A stretch of DNA of 34,281 bases, from the IMG/VR virus record IMGVR_UViG_3300043409_002097, positions 1-34,281 of that record. The stretch is one strand, 5' to 3'. The position numbers and the translations under genes are program-made. The first letter of the stretch is position 1; each line of letters starts with the position of its first letter. Shown one piece after another: positions 16,941-33,716 of this stretch. This stretch comes from a virus. Below the pieces are notes generated by a model that did not search any database, was not told where the DNA came from, and was given only the letters and a program-made list of their open reading frames with translations.

Positions 16941-17016
16941 TGGCACGCCTGGTGAGACTTGAACTCACAACCTATGGTTTTGGAGACCATTGCTCTACCA
17001 ATTGAGCTACAGGACG
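16941..17016 (-). tRNA. tRNA-Trp(CCA) with a bulged acceptor stem
   Basis: The D arm, anticodon arm (ATGGT/CTCCAAA/ACCAT, anticodon CCA), variable loop and T arm (GTGAG/TTCAAGT/CTCAC) are canonical. Discriminator G and an encoded CCA complete the tRNA-Trp identity. The 3' acceptor strand CAGGCGT would pair with ACGCCTG, but the 5' side reads ACGCGTCCTG, with three extra bases. Seven acceptor pairs therefore need a 3-nt bulge, and the exact 5' end (17016 to 17019) is uncertain. Confidence 0.85.
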
Positions 17017-20291: not shown

Positions 20292-20390
20292 CAACCCTGG
20301 TTGGAATCGAACCAACGGCGCACGCTTTTATCCCAGCATTTTGGCCCTTAACCTTGAGGGAGCGTCGGTCTACCACTGAACTACAGGGTT
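20292..20390 (-). tRNA. Non-canonical tRNA-like element with 34-nt anticodon loop
   Basis: A perfect 7-bp acceptor (AACCCTG/CAGGGTT), a perfect T arm (GTTGG/TTCGATT/CCAAC) and a D arm with the usual AGTGGTAGA loop (one T-C mismatch) are present. A 5-bp stem ACGCT/AGCGT lies at the anticodon-stem position. Between its halves are 34 bases instead of 7, that is, 27 extra. No 7-base loop with the usual T at position 33 can be rebuilt by deleting one contiguous piece. It is either a tRNA carrying an unusual insertion or a decayed gene. No CCA is encoded. Confidence 0.5.
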
Positions 20391-20400
20391 GTAAAAATGG

Positions 20401-20473
20401 TCGTGACGGAGAGACTCGAACTCTCGATAACTTGCTCCCAAGGCAAGTGCCATAGCCGCTAGGCGACGTCACG
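20401..20473 (-). tRNA. tRNA-Pro(TGG)
   Basis: A 73-base canonical fold: acceptor CGTGACG/CGTCACG, D stem GCC/GGC, anticodon arm CTTGC/CTTGGGA/GCAAG with anticodon TGG, and T arm GAGAG/TTCGAGT/CTCTC. The discriminator is A, and CCA is not encoded. It is 10 bases from the tRNA-like element downstream and abuts the stop of the 79-aa membrane protein upstream. Confidence 0.95.
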
Positions 20474-20734: not shown

Positions 20735-20809
20735 TGGAGCCAGCACTCGGGATTGAACCGAGGACCTACGGTTTACAAAACCGGTGCTCTACCACTGAGC
20801 TATGCTGGC
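20735..20809 (-). tRNA. tRNA-Thr(TGT)
   Basis: A canonical class I fold with encoded CCA: acceptor GCCAGCA/TGCTGGC, D arm GCTC/AGTGGTA/GAGC, anticodon arm CCGGT/TTTGTAA/ACCGT with anticodon TGT, and T arm CTCGG/TTCAATC/CCGAG. The discriminator is T followed by CCA. It lies between a hairpin (20814-20855) and the membrane-protein gene. Confidence 0.95.
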
Positions 20810-23022: not shown

Positions 23023-23520
23023 TTACTCTAGTACACCTAGAAGTCCTCTCTCAAGAACGGTTAGTCTACCTAGGGCAGATGCAACTCCTGCCGCATAGCA
23101 GAAGGAGTCTTCCTCTGAGCACTCGCTAGAGGTGCAGATGTATTTGCCTGAAGGATGCTTGATGACCACGTGCGTATATCCTCCCTTTGGAAGAAAGGCA
23201 TACATAGGGTCACTGCGGAATGTTGACGGAACCACGATCGCTCTCGCCGTAGCCATCTTTCTCGAGTATGCAGTAGTTGACGGTAGGTACAAGGCCCAGC
23301 GCAAGTGTTTAACTCTTACACTGTTTCCTGCTGCCTGCAGCTTGGCTACTGTAACGCCGTTTTTAGCGGAGTGTACAGCTTGCTTAGGTTTTTCACGAGC
23401 ATACCATGCCCAGGTTTCTCCTGTATGATTGTCTACTCTAGTAAACAACTTGATGCGTTCGTCAAACGATGTTGTGTACCGCGCATCATCTTCAGCCGAC
23501 TTATTCGTTTGAATAATCAT
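23023..23520 (-). CDS. Hypothetical protein downstream of recA-like gene, 165 aa
   Basis: ATG 23520 (MIIQTNKSAEDDARY) gives a 20-base overlap with the recA-like gene; extending further would read 200 bases through that gene in another frame. The middle is basic (KGGYTHVVIKHPSGKYICTS), and a Cys pair occurs later (TSSECSEEDSFCYAA). Position suggests translational coupling to the recombinase. I recognise no family, so a recombination mediator role is only a guess. Confidence 0.6.
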   Translation of the reverse strand: MIIQTNKSAEDDARYTTSFDERIKLFTRVDNHTGETWAWYAREKPKQAVHSAKNGVTVAKLQAAGNSVRVKHLRWALYLPSTTAYSRKMATARAIVVPSTFRSDPMYAFLPKGGYTHVVIKHPSGKYICTSSECSEEDSFCYAAGVASALGRLTVLERGLLGVLE

Positions 23521-24718
23521 ATTCGATCTTGTTCTCAACTTCAGTTTCAAGTTCAGACTTCTTTTTACGTCTGGTCTTGTTTGTTTCGGCGATTGCTGCC
23601 TCCACTTCAGGTGGGGGCATGTCAGGAATTCCGAAGGCTTCCCTGATCCTTTCTTTTGCTTGTGTACTATTCTTGAGCAAGAGAGCAAGATCTTGCTCCC
23701 TGAACTTCTTCTCGGTATCAATTACTCCTGTGGTCGGATGACCTTCGATGTCCAACGTAAACTCCATTCCAGGAATTTTCCATGTGTACCACCCACCAGT
23801 CTTTGCAACCAGTGCAGGATAACTTTCACCCAGCATACGTACCAGAGGAGAATACCAATCGATACCTCCATTAATATGTACATCAAACTCGACCTTCTGG
23901 CTATTACCCTCACGGCCAAGCTTGTTCCGCTTGACTGTCATTGTGTGAGTAGAGCCTGACTTGCGCTTTACTCCCATATGATCTTCTTCGAGATTGTCTC
24001 GAATACGAGCAACCTTGAACTGGTAGGTACTGTTGAACCTTTGAGCATCACCACCCAGCAGTGCTTCAGGTTTTTCCGAACCAAAGCCTTGCATACCCCC
24101 AATCTGATCTCTCAGCTGATTGGTGGCCACAAACACCATGTTTTCACATTCTAGATAGGGAATAATCCCACGATAGAATGCTGCCATGAGTTTTGCGTGC
24201 TCGCCAGGCTTTGCTTGCCCGATCACGTCTTGATCTCTCTCGTAGTCGGTGGCACCGCCTGCAATTGAGTCTAGAGCAATAAGTACGGGAGTCTTCCCGT
24301 CACTGTGCTTGCTGTAGTTTTCAATAATCATCTTGCACAACGTCAAGGCCTCATTGATGCCTCTAGGATTGTGATAGATGACACGCGTGGGATCTACGCC
24401 CTGTAGCTCCATATACCGGAAGTCTGGGGCACTCTCGGTCTCGATCCAGAACATATAGCCTCCAGCCTTCTGGAAGATTTTTGCCAGGTCGAACAGCAGG
24501 GTTGTTTTACTGCAACCTTTTTTCCCATAAACGAGGTAGCACCGACCGTAGGCCATAAACCTACGATCGAATGCGTACTCCATTAGGGGATTATCCAGCA
24601 CAATACCTGTAGGAGGAAGCTCCTTGTCTACAGTATTGAGTTCCAGATTCACAGCTTCAGTTTTGAGTACTTTACTAAAACTTTTTTTAACTGCACCTAA
24701 TAGACTATCTATATTCAT
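23501..24718 (-). CDS. RecA/UvsX-like recombinase
   Basis: The Walker A is GKKGCSKTT (65-73), an unusual form in which the last Gly of GxxxxGKT is replaced by Ser70. Walker B is PVLIALDS with Asp150. QIGGMQGFGSEKPEALLGG is a RecA-like loop region, and the core has the RecA order (YVF/MFWIETES after the ATPase strand). At 405 aa it is slightly longer than bacterial RecA, with an extended acidic C-terminus. It should coat single-stranded DNA with the SSB-like protein encoded just upstream and drive recombination-dependent replication. Confidence 0.88.
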   Translation of the reverse strand: MNIDSLLGAVKKSFSKVLKTEAVNLELNTVDKELPPTGIVLDNPLMEYAFDRRFMAYGRCYLVYGKKGCSKTTLLFDLAKIFQKAGGYMFWIETESAPDFRYMELQGVDPTRVIYHNPRGINEALTLCKMIIENYSKHSDGKTPVLIALDSIAGGATDYERDQDVIGQAKPGEHAKLMAAFYRGIIPYLECENMVFVATNQLRDQIGGMQGFGSEKPEALLGGDAQRFNSTYQFKVARIRDNLEEDHMGVKRKSGSTHTMTVKRNKLGREGNSQKVEFDVHINGGIDWYSPLVRMLGESYPALVAKTGGWYTWKIPGMEFTLDIEGHPTTGVIDTEKKFREQDLALLLKNSTQAKERIREAFGIPDMPPPEVEAAIAETNKTRRKKKSELETEVENKIEYDYSNE

Positions 24719-24724
24719 ATTTTA

Positions 24725-25759
24725 TTATTCTTGGGACATGAACCGAAGCGCTTCTTCACGACTCAGTCTGCCCACCATCATCGGATTCTGTGGCAGAGAG
24801 TCTAGGTCTGCTGCAGCCGGAGGATTGATAGCCACACTAGGAGCTGCGATTGTTGCGCGCGGAATTTCTACTGCAGCCACTGCAACAGGAGCGATCACCG
24901 CTTTGGCGATCTCTTGCTGTACCACTGGGGGAGCACTAACTGGAGCTGCAACTGGAACCGCTGGAAGCTTCATGCCTTGCACTGCAGGCTTCGGCATTCC
25001 AGGGAAACCATTCATACAATCTTCGAACACATCGCTCGAGTACATTTCACGCAGCTTTGCCAGAATTTCATCTTTGGTCTTGGGAACAAAGATTTCATCC
25101 AGGTTATACAAATAATCGCTGTCGGCCAACTGTAAAGGCAGCTGTACAGGCTGATTGTTCTCAACCTGAATCATCCACGGATTTGCAGTGTTCTCCTTCA
25201 ACTTGACGAACACAGGTACGCAACGTTCTGGGTCATTGATCGGCTGCCTGGCGTTACCCATAAGGTCTTTGCCCTCTAGCCAACCCATGAGAATGTCTGC
25301 ACCGTTACGCAGAGGCAAGTCAAGGATATGTGCACCTGCTCCAAGATTCTGAGCAAATGCCACGTTGTAGATCACACGTTCAGCAATACGCCCACAGCTA
25401 GGATACTTCTTGAACTTTTTGCCGTTAGACTCGACGTCAGTGACTCGAGATTCTTCAGGATAGAGCATTCTGAAGTTGTTGGCAAAATAGTCTGCAGGAT
25501 CCTGGGCACGGTTAGCAACATAGTACTTTTCTTTGAAGTTGTTACCAAAGTTGTCGCGAATTGCGATCTTCTTGAACCATACACCCTGACCTCTGTCGTC
25601 TGCTTTGTATGCAGGCAAGAAGTACAGGTAGGCACCTTCCTGATTTGTCGTCTTATTGAATACCGCCTTACGAATACCGTCTTTGATGTATGGTGTAGAA
25701 GATTGGCTGAGGTTTAATTCTGAGCCTTCGAACTTGAGGGAGGGTTTAATGATAGCCAT
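24725..25759 (-). CDS. Putative single-stranded DNA-binding protein (gp32-like), 344 aa
   Basis: The N-terminal 250 residues look like a compact OB-type domain: AYLYFLPAYKADDRGQGVWF, KKIAIRDNFGNNFKEKYYV, a cysteine at PSCGRIAERV and a later strand region ADILMGWLEGK. Next comes a Pro/Ala/Val-rich linker (about 255-325) and a short tail rich in acidic residues (LSREEALRFMSQE), the general layout of phage SSBs. The gene precedes recA-like directly (6-base gap) and follows the E1-like gene, so a role in replication is likely. Family assignment is by layout and context. Confidence 0.55.
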   Translation of the reverse strand: MAIIKPSLKFEGSELNLSQSSTPYIKDGIRKAVFNKTTNQEGAYLYFLPAYKADDRGQGVWFKKIAIRDNFGNNFKEKYYVANRAQDPADYFANNFRMLYPEESRVTDVESNGKKFKKYPSCGRIAERVIYNVAFAQNLGAGAHILDLPLRNGADILMGWLEGKDLMGNARQPINDPERCVPVFVKLKENTANPWMIQVENNQPVQLPLQLADSDYLYNLDEIFVPKTKDEILAKLREMYSSDVFEDCMNGFPGMPKPAVQGMKLPAVPVAAPVSAPPVVQQEIAKAVIAPVAVAAVEIPRATIAAPSVAINPPAAADLDSLPQNPMMVGRLSREEALRFMSQE

Positions 25760-25805: not shown

Positions 25806-26402
25806 CTAGACCATGAAGACAGACTTGAAAGTCATCTGTCCTCGTAACTTGTTTAGGAAGGCTTGCACCATCATAGATGCTACCATCGTGGGTAGTGTAT
25901 GACTGATGTTCTGCTCTTTCTCGTAAGCGAGAAGACAGCCACCTTCTTCCTGACTGCTGTCTACGTAAGGTTGGAGCTGCTCTTTTGGTAGGTCACTATT
26001 GAACAATGCACCCTGCCTGCTGGTGCAGCGGCCGTCAATCCAGAACAGCTTGTCCTTTCCTTTAGCCCATCCATATTCGTATAGTGCCTTGCGGAACGGC
26101 ATACTGTCAACACAACTGAAAATGACATCGTACTTTTTGAAGTCACTTTCGGCCATACGTTTCTTGAGGCCGTTGACCACGTAGTTATTTTCAAGCACAC
26201 TCACCTTGTATTTGCCAATGTCATCAGGTTTAAAGTTTTGATGCAAGAGGTTTTTCAAGTCGACTGTATCGTCGTCGTAGATGTCTACATCCATGTCGGC
26301 GTAGTCAAACTGTTTACGATTAAAGCCATAATCGAACAGTATGGCCAGAAGATTCGAACCGATACCTCCAGCACCAGCGATGCCTATTTTCTTGAATTTC
26401 AT
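25806..26402 (-). CDS. E1/ThiF-like adenylating protein, 198 aa
   Basis: The nucleotide loop is GAGGIGSN (10-17), followed by DVDIYDDDTVDLKNLLHQNF, equivalent to the D.D.v...NL.RQ motif of E1 and MoeB proteins but with His instead of the usual Arg. DIGKYKV and SCVDSMPFRKALYEY match the later E1 features. No zinc CxxC pairs are present. Cysteines at SCVD, GRC and GGC are candidate catalytic residues. The 198 aa are only the adenylation core. It is coupled with JAMM and a 712-aa gene, a layout seen in prokaryotic ubiquitin-like systems. Confidence 0.82.
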   Translation of the reverse strand: MKFKKIGIAGAGGIGSNLLAILFDYGFNRKQFDYADMDVDIYDDDTVDLKNLLHQNFKPDDIGKYKVSVLENNYVVNGLKKRMAESDFKKYDVIFSCVDSMPFRKALYEYGWAKGKDKLFWIDGRCTSRQGALFNSDLPKEQLQPYVDSSQEEGGCLLAYEKEQNISHTLPTMVASMMVQAFLNKLRGQMTFKSVFMV

Positions 26403-26406
26403 TTTG

Positions 26407-26841
26407 TTATTTAACCAATACTTCTAACGTTCTTGTAGGGATGTAGTAATGTAACGATTGCTCTCCGAACCACTCGGAATAGGAGAACATTTCCATTATT
26501 GGTGAGAATATAATGTTCTGTTTGAAGCCTTGAAAAAGCTTTCCAAGATCAAGGCTACTAGGAGCAGGACTGAACTGTGGGTGAGTGTGGAAGCTTGCAT
26601 AGAACTTCCACCCTTCGCTCACCTTTGACAGGACAAGACTACTAAGTTCGTTTTGATCTGTTTCATACAAGCCTGCAGCCATGCCTGTACCCTCATAGAT
26701 ATTCTTTACTTTAACAAAGAGGAATTCTTCATCCTTGTTGAGGATGATTCCGCCTTGTTCTTCTATAGGATGGCTACAGCTTTTAGCTGCAGCCAGCATC
26801 TCAGTCACTAGTGTTTTGTCTAAGGATGATATCAAGTTCAT
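26407..26841 (-). CDS. JAMM/JAB-domain protein (probable deubiquitinase-like isopeptidase)
   Basis: The complete JAMM metalloprotease motif is seen: Glu27 or Glu28 in EEQGG, then HTHPQFSPAPSSLD with His85, His87, Ser95 and Asp98 in exact HxHx7SxxD spacing. The Zn2+ site should therefore be active. At 144 aa it is a single domain. Relatives process ubiquitin-like proteins or cysteine-carrier proteins, and some cleave cell-wall peptides in tail-tip proteins. The E1-like gene 4 bases downstream favours the ubiquitin-like reading here. Its ATG overlaps the 712-aa gene stop. Confidence 0.88.
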   Translation of the reverse strand: MNLISSLDKTLVTEMLAAAKSCSHPIEEQGGIILNKDEEFLFVKVKNIYEGTGMAAGLYETDQNELSSLVLSKVSEGWKFYASFHTHPQFSPAPSSLDLGKLFQGFKQNIIFSPIMEMFSYSEWFGEQSLHYYIPTRTLEVLVK

Positions 26842-28976
26842 ACTGTTTGGTTGTTATTTCGCTTTTCAATCACGTTCGATACCAATTCGTCGAGCTGTTC
26901 TGCTACGTCCCGATCGGGTTGATAATTGTGCACATTTTCTGCACCAGGTTGCGCCGCACCTTTGAGCGTTCCGATGTGTTCTTGCATCATGCTATCATTC
27001 TTCAACGCCAGCAGTCTTGCAGCGATGTCGTCGTAGCCTGCACCAGCATAGTGTTTGTCGTTCACAATGCAGCGATACTGCTTTGTCGCATAGTCGTACA
27101 CTTTAGCGTTCTCTATGACAACGGCATACTCACGCAGCACACCCTTTACATGGTAAGCCTTCTTGCCCAGGAATTCAATCGATGTAGCATTCGTCAATTT
27201 CACGGCAGTATTCAAGAACTCTTTAGACTTTTCGATGATAGCTTTCTTTTGCTCGTTCACCACACTGAGCAGGGCAACTATATCCTCTCTAGTGATGAGT
27301 GTTTCTTCCGTGGTTTTTTCAATACCGTCTTCGTTCTTGACCGTCTTGCTAAACGTACAGCAATCCAATAGCAAGCCTGCCAGTTCGGAGGCGCACCAGT
27401 TATAATCACGCACTTCAGCTCTTCTATAATAACCCAACTGAGATTTAGGATAGAAGGTTTTTGCGTCAGTCCTTTTATTCAATGTCTCAGCCTTCTTGAT
27501 TAGCTTGCTCAGGTTTACTCTAACCTTACGGTCTTTGTCTACCTGCAGCTTGAATTGCTTGTCTGTGGGATCTATGCAGAGCTTGATAGCCGGTGCGTCA
27601 ATGCTTGGTGCAGCGTCCTGATACTCTTGTCTTGAGATGGTCGAGTGTATCTTGAACTGCAATCCGTTGGCGACCACATCATGCCACTTGATACTCATTC
27701 TGCTGATACTCTTCAAGAACAGCTTGTAGTCTTCTGTAGTACGATGACAGCTAGCCCTGTGAATAGCTTTGGAGATCTCATCTTTATTGATGCGTACGTC
27801 GTTGATGTACCGTTGGAAGGTGCGTGACACTGCGGGGGTGATCGAGATGTTGTTGATCTTGAACACAGGTAATGAAGTCTTTTCTCCTGCTTCAATGGCA
27901 GGTGCAGGAAGCACTTCAGCCGCCGCATGATCGTCCTCTGCAGCCTTGGCAGGCTCATCAGGAGCAAACTTATTCAGCTTTTTCTCGATACGTGCAGCAT
28001 ATATAGCAATCACCCCATAGATGTCAAACTCACCATTGAAGTTGAGATCTGCGTATAATGTTTCAAGCAGGTCATCAGCCTCTATAGACACTTGCTCATA
28101 TACAGCAGAACTCTTGGTAAACACTATGTTGTTGATGGTGGTTTTCTCGATCTCGCCTTCAACCAATTTACCTACCACCAGCAACGTACTATTTTTCTTA
28201 TAGTCGTTCTCTATCAGTGCATTCATCGGCTGATAGGCGCGCTTGCCTGCATCACTCATTTTCTTGAACAGCTTCAGCCTGGTCATTTCAGCCGAGTGCA
28301 CATTGATGAAGCAGCCGTTCTGTAAAAGCTCAATGAGCTTAAAATCGGCAGTGCACATAGCAAAGATGTGTGCCACATGGACATCGTAGGCGTTTGCGGC
28401 GACCATTTTATAGATCTTTTTACGGCCTACCTGGTGTACAAAGCTCTTCACATAAAAACCTTCGTCTAGGTAGTCATACAAAGGTTCGTCGTTTCTACTG
28501 ATAATGTTTAGCGCGATTGCTGATGTTACTCCATTTAAGCCTGCAAGGAACCTGTATGTGTAGTTCCCTTCAGTGAACTCGAGCGGAGGACGCGAGATGA
28601 TGTCTGGCTGGTATTGATACGGTACTTCAGAAGGTACCAGCTTTAGAGTCTTGTATTTGTTGGCGTGCGCTGCCTCTATAGGCGTCAACACTTTCTCGTC
28701 CCCCCCTAGCCTACGCAACTTAACTATAAGCTCGCTGTGCAGGTTGCTTATGTATTTGCTGAAGTTTAAGTCCTGCAGAGCTATTGGATGTAGCTTGCTG
28801 TACTCGTGCAGCTTTTCCACATTCTTGAAAGACATTGCTGTGTATGTGGTATTGTATACCGGTGAGTAGGAATTATCGTAATGATAATTTATATGAATAG
28901 TGGCACGAACAAAGTATTTAGACAGGGTCTGATATTCTTTGGCTATTTCTTTGAATTGCTCGGATTTGATCACCAT
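26838..28976 (-). CDS. Large unknown protein linked to JAMM/E1-like genes (712 aa)
   Basis: It is the first gene of the operon after the terminator at 28997-29034. Two halves are joined by an Ala/Glu/Pro-rich linker (about residues 345-375). The N-half has glycine/aliphatic strands (YRFLAGLNGVTSAIALNII), the C-half several cysteines (YNWCASELAGLLLDCC) and ends with CIVNDKHYAGAGYDDIAARL. I see no known E2, nuclease or helicase motif. It overlaps the JAMM gene by ATGA, so it is probably made with JAMM and E1 and could be their partner or target, but this is context only. Confidence 0.75.
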   Translation of the reverse strand: MVIKSEQFKEIAKEYQTLSKYFVRATIHINYHYDNSYSPVYNTTYTAMSFKNVEKLHEYSKLHPIALQDLNFSKYISNLHSELIVKLRRLGGDEKVLTPIEAAHANKYKTLKLVPSEVPYQYQPDIISRPPLEFTEGNYTYRFLAGLNGVTSAIALNIISRNDEPLYDYLDEGFYVKSFVHQVGRKKIYKMVAANAYDVHVAHIFAMCTADFKLIELLQNGCFINVHSAEMTRLKLFKKMSDAGKRAYQPMNALIENDYKKNSTLLVVGKLVEGEIEKTTINNIVFTKSSAVYEQVSIEADDLLETLYADLNFNGEFDIYGVIAIYAARIEKKLNKFAPDEPAKAAEDDHAAAEVLPAPAIEAGEKTSLPVFKINNISITPAVSRTFQRYINDVRINKDEISKAIHRASCHRTTEDYKLFLKSISRMSIKWHDVVANGLQFKIHSTISRQEYQDAAPSIDAPAIKLCIDPTDKQFKLQVDKDRKVRVNLSKLIKKAETLNKRTDAKTFYPKSQLGYYRRAEVRDYNWCASELAGLLLDCCTFSKTVKNEDGIEKTTEETLITREDIVALLSVVNEQKKAIIEKSKEFLNTAVKLTNATSIEFLGKKAYHVKGVLREYAVVIENAKVYDYATKQYRCIVNDKHYAGAGYDDIAARLLALKNDSMMQEHIGTLKGAAQPGAENVHNYQPDRDVAEQLDELVSNVIEKRNNNQTV

Positions 28977-28996: not shown

Positions 28997-29034
28997 ATAA
29001 AATAAACCCCCTGGTACTTTGTGTACCAGGGGGC
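28997..29034 (-). terminator. Strong rho-independent terminator
   Basis: CCCCCTGGTAC (29033-29023 on the minus strand) and GTACCAGGGGG (29017-29007) make a perfect 11-bp stem with a 5-base loop, followed by TTTATTTTAT. It ends the short 124-aa transcription unit (29064-29438) before the 712-aa gene. The stem is also flanked by A/T-rich sequence on the other side, but there is no + strand gene to end. Confidence 0.93.
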
Positions 29035-29063: not shown

Positions 29064-29438
29064 CTACTCGAGAGAGAGCAGCTCTTGCAGCAAACCACCA
29101 ACCAGCATACCCGTCAGCAGGACAGCAGGGTCGTTCATGGCTTGCAGCTGGGCCTGGAGCTTCTGTACGTTTTCCTGAGTGCGGAAGTTGCCTCCGGCGA
29201 ACTCAAACTTTTCACCATTAATGAACACCCAGCGAGCCTTGTTCTCGGCGTTTTCAAGGATGTTGTCAGTAGCCTCTTCAAGGCTGAGGTCTGCGACAGT
29301 ACTGTGACCTGTACGGTCAGCGATTTCGATCTTGTACTTGGCAGGCGCTGCAGCCAGGTTCGTGACGTATTCGCGAAGGTTGTTAGCGACTTCTGCGAGC
29401 TGGGAGTTTTCGATGGAGGAGGTGTTTGATGTATTCAT
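29064..29438 (-). CDS. Small protein with possible beta-grasp (ubiquitin-like) core, 124 aa
   Basis: ATG 29438 (MNTSNTSSIENSQ) follows the A-rich leader AAAAAACAAAATAGT. Residues about 35-80 read as strand (KYKIEIADRTG), strand (HSTVADLS), helix (LEEATDNILENAENK), strand (RWVFINGEKFEF), the order of a ubiquitin-like fold, but no C-terminal Gly-Gly is present. A helical C-terminus (LLTGMLVGGLLQELL) follows. The G/C-richer codons, own promoter and own terminator suggest high expression. The fold is inference; a structural or accessory replication protein is equally possible. Confidence 0.65.
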   Translation of the reverse strand: MNTSNTSSIENSQLAEVANNLREYVTNLAAAPAKYKIEIADRTGHSTVADLSLEEATDNILENAENKARWVFINGEKFEFAGGNFRTQENVQKLQAQLQAMNDPAVLLTGMLVGGLLQELLSLE

Positions 29439-30574: not shown

Positions 30575-33268
30575 TCAAGCTTTCCACTCCCAGACATTCT
30601 TTGCAAAATTCCAGGCAGTTTCTTTTTCGAACACTTTATCCTTACCCTTCCACCGGTCCATGATCGCAAGCTCACAGCCTACATTATCGCCTGTAGCTAG
30701 CTTTGTTTGATGACAGAAGACATGCTTTAGCACCTCCTGTATATAATTATCCTTGCACAGATCTTTGTGCACTGCCCAATAGCCTGCATCATGTACAGTA
30801 TTTATTGGCAGAATATATTTCATCCAAAGACCCTCTTTTTTCAGGAGGTTCTTCAGATTAACCGAAGCCTCCCACATGAACCAGGCTAGTTCACTGGCCA
30901 CAGGAAAGGCAAGGCTCTCATTCATCCAACCTGCAAGAATACCGAAGTTGTCAGTGTTCTCGTAGTTTAATACAAGCCCTCTAGCATTCGTGATGCGCTG
31001 ATGAGTCTGTACCTCATTAGTACACTTCTCACGATATTGCATATACCGCTTGTACCTATGCCAAGTTTCCAAGGCATATTCCAGTGTAGCTAAACCTACA
31101 TGAAGACCGTTCTCCGCGTAGATGTCTGCCTGAATAGGCATCGCAGCAAATTTTAATCCTGCGGTATAGCTAACTCTGAAAGTAATACTTTTTGCAATGA
31201 CGTACTTGCTCACATCTTTCTTGGTAAGTGTGGCATCGTTGAAGTACTCACGCATCTTTGTCTGATGGAAGTTTCCTGCACGGATGTCGTGAATGAAGTC
31301 CTGGTCCTGACTCAGAAAGGCCATGATAGCCAAATCTGCACCAGCCACGTCAAGCTCGCACCAGTAGTAGTCTGGATCTCCTGTACAGAAAATATTCCTG
31401 ATGTTCTTGGGAAGCAGATGCTCTACCTTCTTCTGTTCATCACTGTCATACTTGTTGTGTCCTGGTACAAATATGTCTGGAATATATGCCAACACTTTGG
31501 ATGCCGGGTTCTGCACATTAGGACTGCTACTTGCCCTGAAGTTTTTGAGACACTCGAAAAAGCTGGCATGCACCTTACCATCATTACAGATGGCTGCCCA
31601 GTAGCTTTGCTTCAGAGGTTCATCAATGTCTTCGTCAAGCTCACTCTCAGCATCTATCACTACACCTTTTTTGCTGAGGAACTTAGTGGCAAATACACCT
31701 ACCCGGCTCACACTTAACAGAAGTGTAATGGCTTTGTGTACGTCTTGAATAGCTTCCTCATCAGGGTGCTTATCAAGCAATTCCTCTAGCTGGAATTTGA
31801 TAGTAGAAAGGCTTTTGCCGTTCGTACTAGGCTCGTACAGCTTTTGCGTCTGAGGCTTTTGGTTGTCATACCAAGCTTTGCTCTTTGGGCTTTTGCCTGA
31901 TTTGGTGTAGTAGGCAGGCTCAACATTGAGTACTTCAAACAGCAGGTTCTTTTTCTGCGGTGCACTGTTAGGGTTGAAATCTTCTACATTGAACCTTTCT
32001 TTCAGGAAAGTGACCAATGTGTTTTTCAACTCCTCATACTTCGAGCTATACTTCTCAGTGATATCCTCAAGAACATGCTTGTCCACGCCGATACCCGTCA
32101 ACTCCATGTCTGTGAAGTAGTGCGTCAACGGTAGATATATATCGTAGTACGCACTCTTGAGGTGCTCTGGGAATAGCTGCATCATACGCAAACATGCCTC
32201 ACGATGACTCACTGCGTCACCTGCGCAATAGTAGTAGTATATCTCCGGCTCAAGAAACTTCATCTTGGCCATCTCATGCTTGGCCAGCTTGTGCTCCTTC
32301 ATCTTTCTGTTCAGGGCAGTATAGTACGGAGGATAATCTGTAAACATCTTGATACCTGTCTCAAGACCTTTACTAAGCCTACTGTCGAAGAATGCCACTG
32401 CCTTCATTCCGTCAAAGGCGAGTGTCTCGTCAGGCAGATTGAATCCTCTGTGACGTAGACGCAGATCGTCAGCCCTGATATTCCAGCCCAGCCTCTTCGC
32501 CTGAGGATGCTCAAGGATGAGCTTCATGGTATCTAGAAGCTCGCGATTCTCTGTTACACCGTCCTTGCTGATGTTCAATACGATCGCCAAATCTTTTTGA
32601 CAACAGTACTGAAACTCATACATCACCTCATCATCAGTAAATTTACTACCAAACCACTCAGCGTCATAGCCTATGGTAAGCATTCCCTTCGCAATGTACT
32701 GCTGCAGTATTTGAATGTTCTCTGCAGGGTCATTGATTACGATGTACTTGTAGTCTTCGTATTTCAGATTATCTTCAAGCACACGCTTTGCGAGACAGAA
32801 GATTTCTCGAAACTCTGGACGCTTTGTAGGGTCCATTGCCACAATCATGCCTGGTGCATAGTTTGCCATAACCTTGCCGTAAGGTGTATCGGTAACCTCC
32901 CCGATATAATCACCCATCTTGATGTTAGAGCGCATCACCCTCTTGAACACTTCTGCACCCATAGGCATGATGAGCTTTGGCTTGATCGCTTCTATCTCCT
33001 GGTCTAGAGCTTCTCGCCACTCCTCAATATCCTCAGCGGAAGGCTTGGACTTGCTACCAATACCGTGCTTCACCATACCTGTGAAGTGTACTTTCTCTAG
33101 AGGAATACCCGCAACACTTAGAGCAGATTTCACTTCATCTGCGGAGAAGCCTTGCTTACCAAAACCTCGAGCCTCCAAGTCGTCCTTGTTAGGATGACTA
33201 AAGATGATCAACATCTCAGGGACGCATCCTTCTGCTACCGCTGTATTAATTTTTACTTTTTCAGACAT
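30575..33268 (-). CDS. Family A DNA polymerase with N-terminal UDG-like domain and 3'-5' exonuclease
   Basis: ATG 33268 (MSEKVKINTAVAEG) gives 897 aa. Residues about 15-170 (SHPNKDDLEARGFGKQG, AIKPKLIMPMGAEVF, MANYAPGM) look like a uracil-DNA-glycosylase superfamily fold, as in SPO1-type polymerases. Exonuclease motifs follow: IGYDAEWFG, LGWNIRADDL and YYCAGDA. The polymerase has motif A WCELDVAGADLAIMAFLS, motif B AKSITFRVSYTAG and motif C NTVHDAGYW. Motif C reads His-Asp-Ala rather than His-Asp-Glu. It is the phage replicative polymerase. Confidence 0.92.
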   Translation of the reverse strand: MSEKVKINTAVAEGCVPEMLIIFSHPNKDDLEARGFGKQGFSADEVKSALSVAGIPLEKVHFTGMVKHGIGSKSKPSAEDIEEWREALDQEIEAIKPKLIMPMGAEVFKRVMRSNIKMGDYIGEVTDTPYGKVMANYAPGMIVAMDPTKRPEFREIFCLAKRVLEDNLKYEDYKYIVINDPAENIQILQQYIAKGMLTIGYDAEWFGSKFTDDEVMYEFQYCCQKDLAIVLNISKDGVTENRELLDTMKLILEHPQAKRLGWNIRADDLRLRHRGFNLPDETLAFDGMKAVAFFDSRLSKGLETGIKMFTDYPPYYTALNRKMKEHKLAKHEMAKMKFLEPEIYYYYCAGDAVSHREACLRMMQLFPEHLKSAYYDIYLPLTHYFTDMELTGIGVDKHVLEDITEKYSSKYEELKNTLVTFLKERFNVEDFNPNSAPQKKNLLFEVLNVEPAYYTKSGKSPKSKAWYDNQKPQTQKLYEPSTNGKSLSTIKFQLEELLDKHPDEEAIQDVHKAITLLLSVSRVGVFATKFLSKKGVVIDAESELDEDIDEPLKQSYWAAICNDGKVHASFFECLKNFRASSSPNVQNPASKVLAYIPDIFVPGHNKYDSDEQKKVEHLLPKNIRNIFCTGDPDYYWCELDVAGADLAIMAFLSQDQDFIHDIRAGNFHQTKMREYFNDATLTKKDVSKYVIAKSITFRVSYTAGLKFAAMPIQADIYAENGLHVGLATLEYALETWHRYKRYMQYREKCTNEVQTHQRITNARGLVLNYENTDNFGILAGWMNESLAFPVASELAWFMWEASVNLKNLLKKEGLWMKYILPINTVHDAGYWAVHKDLCKDNYIQEVLKHVFCHQTKLATGDNVGCELAIMDRWKGKDKVFEKETAWNFAKNVWEWKA

Positions 33269-33269
33269 A

Positions 33270-33716
33270 TTAAAGCTCCATTCCATCCGTACCGTACGTC
33301 TCCGCTGCGGTATCTATGATGTAACTACCGAATGTTAATATACCGTCTCTGGTGAAACACAGTGTTTCTTCAGAGAACTCGATCAGCTGCCCTCCTCCTT
33401 CACGAGGAGAGTAGTCGGGCTTATACTCATAAGGTACTAATCCAAGCAACCCTGAGTCTACAGAATAACCTGTACCTAGCTGGTCATGGTAGTGACCGTC
33501 TCCGTGAGCTGTAGAGAACGATAATACTTTTGTGCCGTCAGGCAAATCTGCATAGTAGCCATTCAGTGCAAATTCTGCGGTTTCATCCGCAGCAGCTAAC
33601 TCAAAACAGTAAGCCGACCAATCTTCATAACCTTGCTTACCTGTTACAATGTAGCACGGGTCAGCCAGCCAGTATTTTCCTGCAGGCACGATAAACGACT
33701 TGTATGTATCTTTCAT
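33270..33716 (-). CDS. Conserved 'DPCY' phage protein, 148 aa
   Basis: The opening YKSFIVPAGKYWLADPCYIV is typical of a family of bacterial and phage proteins (F.vpsG.w.i.DPCYv..) of unknown function. The core is beta-rich with acidic and aromatic residues (GDGHYHDQLGTGYSVDSGLL, EYKPDYSPREGGG, DTAAETYGTDG), compatible with a small calcium- or ligand-binding barrel. It lies between the helicase and the polymerase, with gaps of 1 to 2 bases on either side, so it belongs to the replication operon by position. Confidence 0.65.
   Translation of the reverse strand: MKDTYKSFIVPAGKYWLADPCYIVTGKQGYEDWSAYCFELAAADETAEFALNGYYADLPDGTKVLSFSTAHGDGHYHDQLGTGYSVDSGLLGLVPYEYKPDYSPREGGGQLIEFSEETLCFTRDGILTFGSYIIDTAAETYGTDGMEL

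Follow-up and report, generated by a model that had tools for sequence, protein, structure and literature searches.

Systems of ubiquitin-like proteins (Ubl) have been described in prokaryotes for cofactor synthesis, for plasmids (PRTRC) and for bacterial defence. In the part of the survey by Iyer et al. (2006, PMC1779556) considered here, sets of an activating enzyme (E1), a JAB protease, a conjugating enzyme (E2) and a Ubl are described for bacteria and plasmids and Ubl-JAB pairs for phage tails, while operon type 6d, which in our own reading corresponds to the PRTRC system of large plasmids, combines a Ub-like protein, JAB, E1 and E2 with a helical protein. The same part of that survey contains no replication-linked phage set with a partner protein of 700 amino acids (aa), and a literature search with most subscription journals and preprints outside its coverage returned no paper on phage-encoded Ubl-E1-JAMM modules. 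Here, we analyze a stretch of 34,281 bases from the IMG/VR virus record IMGVR_UViG_3300043409_002097 (in the following, the window), in which a candidate Ubl precursor, a 712-aa protein, a JAMM metalloprotease and an E1-like enzyme are encoded by four neighbouring genes (Table 1). Together, these genes probably constitute a phage-encoded, reversible Ubl-conjugation module embedded in a replication gene neighbourhood. Contigs compared with the window are numbered L0xx or L1xx.

The 712-aa, JAMM and E1 genes form a tight operon on the minus strand (25806-28976), the first two sharing four bases (ATGA, 26838-26841) and the last two being separated by a 4-base gap, exactly as given in a preliminary description of the window in which these three genes had been proposed as a phage ubiquitin-like modification unit tied to replication. 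The range stated there holds for the three genes and omits the fourth conserved gene (29064-29438) as well as a terminator-like hairpin. Judged from alignments, the product of this fourth gene has the C-terminal layout of a Ubl precursor: the core, conserved over about 80 residues, is followed by an invariant Leu-x-Gly-Gly, its Gly-Gly being invariant across the four-gene loci, and then by 0-9 variable residues in all but two distant relatives. Within the window's own group the motif is close to L[TS]GxLxGG, and the residues following Gly-Gly in the relatives are TK, SK, NE, C or none, with Gly-Gly representing the very end of the protein in 13 distinct loci. In a second group (L060-L077), the protein terminates with ...LTNALVGG or a near variant, L060 having a one-residue tail. 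An AlphaFold2 model of the core, built from 36 sequences, shows the order ββαββαβ at a pLDDT of 82-90 over most of the core and lower values at both ends. The top rows from Foldseek and VIA searches with this model, all of them weak, are mostly Ubl, PB1, MoaD and ISG15 structures and include a bacterial E1-E2-Ubl complex, which makes a beta-grasp/Ubl fold likely, albeit not proven. Ubl candidates adjoining related E1 genes in L082 and L084 match ThiS or SAMP2 at a weak to fair level (ThiS at 5.9e-4 for L082), and a 67-aa distant relative in L078 matches Pfam ThiS weakly. The longest extensions past Gly-Gly, of 75 residues in L034 (3937-4422) and about 155 in L032 (3644-4375), share a similar C-terminal region (PISKVLN... 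and PLSKVFN..., respectively) that is present in no other locus of the set and might represent a fusion partner which the JAMM protease sets free.

The E1-like protein shows the complete signature of the E1/ThiF superfamily (GxGGxG loop, D-x-D, NLxxQ, Lys, Asp and catalytic Cys), and its motifs GAGGIGS and D-x-D...NLxxQ, of which the GxGGxG/NLxxQ core had been seen in the preliminary description, are conserved in relatives. The CxxC pairs of MoeB and ThiF are absent. Its best NCBIfam family is PRTRC_ThiF (TIGR03736) with an E-value of 6.4e-14 and 51.9 bits, which is below the cut-off of 144.75 for this family. By tblastn, nine plasmid records were retrieved, eight of them PRTRC ThiF and one annotated simply as ThiF, and hhalign aligned the protein with plasmid PRTRC ThiF over 196 columns at 99.7%. 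In a maximum-likelihood tree, which took in Flavobacterium phage Fpv1 and left out crAss001, the module E1s make up one side of a branch (support 90/82) adjacent to the E1s of PRTRC and of cultured jumbo phages, whereas E. coli MoeB, ThiF and TcdA stand apart. Searched against solved structures, the E1 profile finds NEDD8 E1 first, followed by other Ubl and bacterial E1s. By sequence, the enzyme thus belongs with plasmid PRTRC ThiF and not with MoeB/ThiF, and an assignment to cofactor enzymes, which the preliminary description had kept in view as an outcome speaking against a conjugation unit, is rejected on the basis of tree and motifs. No relative was found by an E1 profile search of the genome_contigs collection, nor did tblastn of the window E1 and the 712-aa protein against cultured phages give a match at 1e-5. 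In L004 (10157-11931), the E1 gene is split by about 1.1 kb with a homing-endonuclease-like open reading frame (ORF) out of frame with the flanks; this insert is probably an intron, albeit not recognized by Rfam at gathering level.

For the JAMM protein, the match to Prok-JAB exceeds the Pfam curated cut-off. The motif noted in the preliminary description is indeed complete, and together with an upstream invariant glutamate (Glu27/Glu28) the signature of Glu plus HxHx7SxxD is present. Moreover, the motif is complete in 38 out of 38 distinct proteins, of which 13 are encoded beside a Ubl without a tail to trim. As the protease is retained where the Ubl needs no trimming, it may also remove the modifier from targets, adding deconjugation to maturation. 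An alternative role as tail peptidase, raised in the preliminary description, was rejected: the only support is a weak match to a PHROG tail family (7.7e-4), Prok-JAB and defence JAB models match better, and the neighbours are replication genes. In L002, L004, L005, L020, L023-L031, L035 and L059, the 712-like and JAMM genes are set apart by 590-970 extra bases, which in several cases contain an ORF of 190-230 aa; the window is without such an insert.

From these features, we infer the following cycle. The Ubl would be made as a precursor from which the JAMM protease cuts off the short tail, exposing Gly-Gly. E1 would adenylate this end with ATP and probably bind it as a thioester on Cys156, while the 712-aa protein would be the cognate partner, either as E2/E3-like transfer protein, with Cys636 as candidate acceptor, or as the main target. 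With the JAMM protease also taking the modifier off, the mark would be reversible, and the whole cycle would operate during genome replication. Judging by the gene neighbourhood, a protein of replication or recombination may serve as substrate. The proposal of a phage Ubl unit tied to replication is well supported by a Ubl with Gly-Gly, the gene order and a PRTRC-type E1, but nothing singles out SSB (single-stranded DNA-binding protein) or RecA, the substrates suggested in the preliminary description.

The 712-aa protein, already regarded there as an unknown, has no significant family in Pfam, NCBIfam or PHROGs, and a profile search against PDB likewise gave nothing significant. The structure prediction that the preliminary description had called for yielded an AlphaFold2 model with a mean pLDDT of 85.6, with which three viral proteins without names (416-452 aa, E-values of 7e-7 to 1e-5) were found in BFVD. 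Invariant residues cluster in two regions, 375-440 and 558-712, the latter being the C-terminal domain, and both Cys410 and Cys636 are invariant in a 37-row alignment. Over the C-terminal domain, weak VIA rows (Z of 2.6-3.1 only) comprise CENP-P, Mcm21, BRE and Rad6 chains, which we take to be RWD or E2-type folds; a likeness of the modelled domain to this type is suggestive only. The sole recurring Pfam match of the family is DUF7737, found under E=1 in 17 of 28 members (best E-value 1.6e-4) and in the window protein with 18.9 bits, under the Pfam cut-off of 27 bits, so that the C-terminal domain might be a distant relative of DUF7737. The best local alignment with gp78 of Bacteroides phage crAss001 fell at the Cys region, though with P=0.22, and was not used. 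Searches of cultured phages by tblastn at 1e-3 with the 700-aa protein of the second clade and with a 448-aa protein from L078 gave no match. By analogy of position, a role in transfer is suggested for the 712-aa protein, since it holds the slot of the probable E2-like gene in crAss001. As a variant of the conjugation reading, it might be a dedicated target only, with the Ubl being transferred by E1 alone or by a host enzyme, comparable to the E2-less chemistry of archaeal SAMPs. A target role would agree with the strict linkage of the 712-aa gene to the module and with the blank searches for UQ_con and Prok-E2_D (PF14460) in the window and eight related contigs, for which the positive controls were also blank. 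We nevertheless consider this variant rather doubtful, in view of the slot shared with the E2-like gene of crAss001-type modules and the invariant cysteine in the C-terminal domain. The 712-aa family has a fair chance of being new.

With each distinct E1 counted as a single locus, all four genes are kept in 37 non-redundant loci including the window, on contigs of up to 204 kb. They are arranged as Ubl-712-JAMM-E1 in 26 and as 712-Ubl-JAMM-E1 in the other 11 loci, so the unconserved gene order considered in the preliminary description as evidence against a unit is not observed. Each of the domains is common alone, and a ThiF of the cofactor type might simply have become the chance neighbour of a stray JAMM protein, without shared function; linkage over 37 loci with E1 identities dropping to about 30% contradicts this explanation, which we regard as hardly credible. 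Modules of the first group are flanked by the family A DNA polymerase and the 344-aa/UvsX genes, those of the second are located between ribonucleotide reductase and sigma factor plus family A polymerase. In all 20 Ubl-first loci folded, the Ubl/712 interval contains a strong hairpin of differing sequence, which in the window resembles an intrinsic terminator. With a terminator following the Ubl gene, this gene and the other three are not simply one uniform transcript, and the Ubl transcript should be more abundant than that of the enzymes. A divergent version in L078 (1964-7600) encodes the 67-aa Ubl, here ending with GGC, the 448-aa protein, whose C-terminus carries a similar Cys motif, as well as an E1, with no recognized JAMM gene near this module.

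Table 1. Features of the module and of its surroundings in the window.
Feature	Position	Strand	Remarks
Ubl precursor gene	29064..29438	-	ATG at 29438; 124 aa; ends ...LLTGMLVGG then LLQELLSLE; present in all four-gene loci
Codons of invariant Gly-Gly	29094..29099	-	alignments of relatives
9-residue tail LLQELLSLE after Gly-Gly	29067-29093	-	window Ubl
Intrinsic-terminator-like hairpin between Ubl and 712-aa genes	29006..29034	-	perfect 12 bp stem, loop 5, T-rich tail
712-aa partner; proposed transfer (E2/E3-like) or target protein	26838..28976	-	without known family
C-terminal domain of 712-aa protein (residues 558-712)	26841..27305	-	AlphaFold2 model: long helix, four strands, Cys636 segment, helix
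Cys636 codon	27069-27071	-	37-row alignment
JAMM/JAB metalloprotease, predicted Ubl-tail protease and isopeptidase	26407..26841	-	144 aa; Prok-JAB E=1.7e-7
JAMM motif HTHPQFSPAPSSLD (HxHx7SxxD)	26548..26589	-	conserved in relatives
E1-like (ThiF-fold) adenylating enzyme (predicted)	25806..26402	-	198 aa; Pfam ThiF E=1.6e-19, over Pfam curated cut-off
Invariant Cys156 codon of E1	25935..25937	-	aligns with catalytic Cys column of E. coli MoeB/ThiF
344-aa gene, directly downstream of E1 gene	24725..25759	-	conserved neighbour
UvsX/RecA-like recombinase, conserved neighbour	23501..24718	-	Pfam RecA 5.9e-19; PHROG UvsX-like 1.3e-34
Family A DNA polymerase, conserved upstream neighbour	30575..33286	-	N-terminal uracil-DNA-glycosylase-like domain
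Four tRNA genes	16945-17016, 20292-20390, 20401-20473, 20738-20809	-

On the minus strand in 5' to 3' direction, the Ubl gene is preceded by a DnaB-like helicase fragment, the family A DNA polymerase, a GP88-like gene and a 94-aa gene, and the 712-aa, JAMM and E1 genes following it lead to the 344-aa gene, the UvsX/RecA-like gene and a Holliday-junction resolvase. The preliminary description had the operon running into SSB-like and recA-like genes, of which the latter is borne out by the UvsX and RecA profiles, whereas the 344-aa product could not be confirmed as SSB, its profile matches being at chance level. The polymerase with its uracil-DNA-glycosylase-like domain (UDG, 3.4e-6) is kept in relatives. 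Terminase models recognized few of nine long contigs (PF03237 in one, phrog_2 in two, the terminases of the others being unrecognized by both), hence IMG/VR and the replication genes are the basis for calling the source a phage.

Several observations weigh against a conjugation module. Fold matches of the Ubl score weakly, with E about 0.1 and Z about 5, and are intermixed with protein G/L domains, and hhalign gives a probability of just 0.5%, that is, no match, with plasmid PRTRC-C. PDB structure searches with the 712-aa model give no clear solved relative, the protein matches no Pfam E2 family, including Prok-E2_D on its C-terminal domain, and it shows no profile match to PRTRC-B, the PRTRC-operon helical protein or crAss/Fpv gp78-like proteins. 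Finally, E1, JAMM and a Gly-Gly protein also make up sulfur-carrier operons, according to the part of the survey considered here (Iyer et al., 2006, PMC1779556). A ThiS/MoaD/CysO-like protein could accordingly have its Gly-Gly freed by JAMM and adenylated by E1 and then be loaded with sulfur as a thiocarboxylate, which the 712-aa protein would use for thiolating a nucleotide, tRNA or metabolite. The RNA ligase, tRNAs and nucleic-acid enzymes encoded in the window would suit such chemistry, and the locus shares with ThiS-ThiF, MoaD-MoeB and CysO-Mec+ a likely beta-grasp protein with Gly-Gly, the E1 fold and, in some of them, JAMM. In contrast to these systems, the 198-aa E1 has neither a rhodanese domain nor CxxC pairs and is placed on another branch, the PRTRC side of the tree, no sulfurtransferase or desulfurase is seen beside the module, and JAMM is kept with tail-less Ubls. 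Owing to the missing rhodanese, the position of E1 and the retained protease, we consider a sulfur carrier unlikely.

The virus apparently possesses a whole Ubl cycle in its replication operon, with a conserved Ubl and a large partner protein, as do many contigs of 100-200 kb. If the conjugation reading holds, phages would join the users of ubiquitin-like signalling, with a function testable in cultured relatives. More tentatively, and with somewhat less than even confidence, we propose that large phages run a complete reversible Ubl cycle as a core replication function, that the 700-aa protein is the founder of a novel class of Ubl-transfer enzymes (E2/E3-like, via Cys636) without relatives among known E2s, and that the mark serves to control proteins of replication or recombination, comparable to the modification of eukaryotic PCNA.

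Among defence systems, CBASS Cap2/Cap3 and Bil likewise combine an E1-type adenylation domain with a JAMM protease. In the phage module, however, E1 consists of a single 198-aa domain with no E2 fused to it, the context is one of conserved phage replication genes and, unlike in CBASS, a Ubl is brought along. No CD-NTase was found among the neighbours searched, and the fused E2-E1 architecture of Cap2 was not encountered. By its architecture, the module is not CBASS or Bil. A unit decoying or stripping Bil or CBASS modifications of the host, similar to the disarming of a host conjugation system put forward in the preliminary description, would be in line with weak matches to defence models for JAB and E1-E2. 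Disarming is less likely because the phage brings its own Ubl, which, like E1, is needless for a stripper, and considering also the replication genes around and the lack of a fused E2 domain, we rate counter-defence as very improbable.

Related gene sets are found in cultured phages. In crAss001 (gp79-gp76; L100, 2244-6654), the order is Ubl-like, E2-like, JAMM and E1, where the E2-like gene overlaps with the JAMM gene in the same manner as the 712-aa gene of the window, and the same quartet is present in Kolpuevirus frurule (L101, 2394-6642) and Fpv1 (L018, 4469-9501). The quartets lie beside DNA primase and uracil-DNA glycosylase genes and encode a JAMM motif HSHxxMxxFFSGTD and a ThiF-fold E1. 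As the JAMM protein is annotated as metalloprotease and E1 as thiamine biosynthesis protein ThiF, the latter label conceals related units in phages such as crAss001 and Fpv1. From motifs and position, gp78 of crAss001 is probably E2-like, although Pfam shows no E2 match for it. Differences are that gp78 is not matched by the 712-aa protein and that the Fpv1 E1 is placed elsewhere in the tree. In Fpv1, the Ubl domain has ...QVKSGG at its end, before a long extension, and the JAMM reading is split around an endonuclease gene. In Salmonella phage Arash (L089, 1519-4539) and Bacillus phage KLEB27-3 (L088, 4660-7708), a PRTRC-like E1 and JAB are encoded beside a Prok-E2_D-like gene, this label referring to sub-threshold Pfam matches. 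Acinetobacter phage ME3 (L087) has a PRTRC-like E1 with a gene annotated as PRTRC protein A about 3 kb away.

Compared with PRTRC itself, the phage E1 scores under the PRTRC_ThiF cut-off, neither Prok-E2_D nor PRTRC-B is detectable in the operon proteins, the Ubl and the 712-aa protein are without profile kinship to PRTRC-C, PRTRC-B and the helical protein, and no ParB-like gene is among the operon neighbours. By profile comparison, the module is thus outside PRTRC with respect to E2_D, Ubl and the ThiF cut-off. In both versions, on the other hand, E1 is related over its full length, Ubl, JAMM and E1 are separate genes and the Ubl has a terminal glycine. The PRTRC plasmid operon is located near dnaN in L093 and L095. 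As replication genes adjoin both the phage and the plasmid version, the phage module bears on the role of PRTRC-type systems as well.

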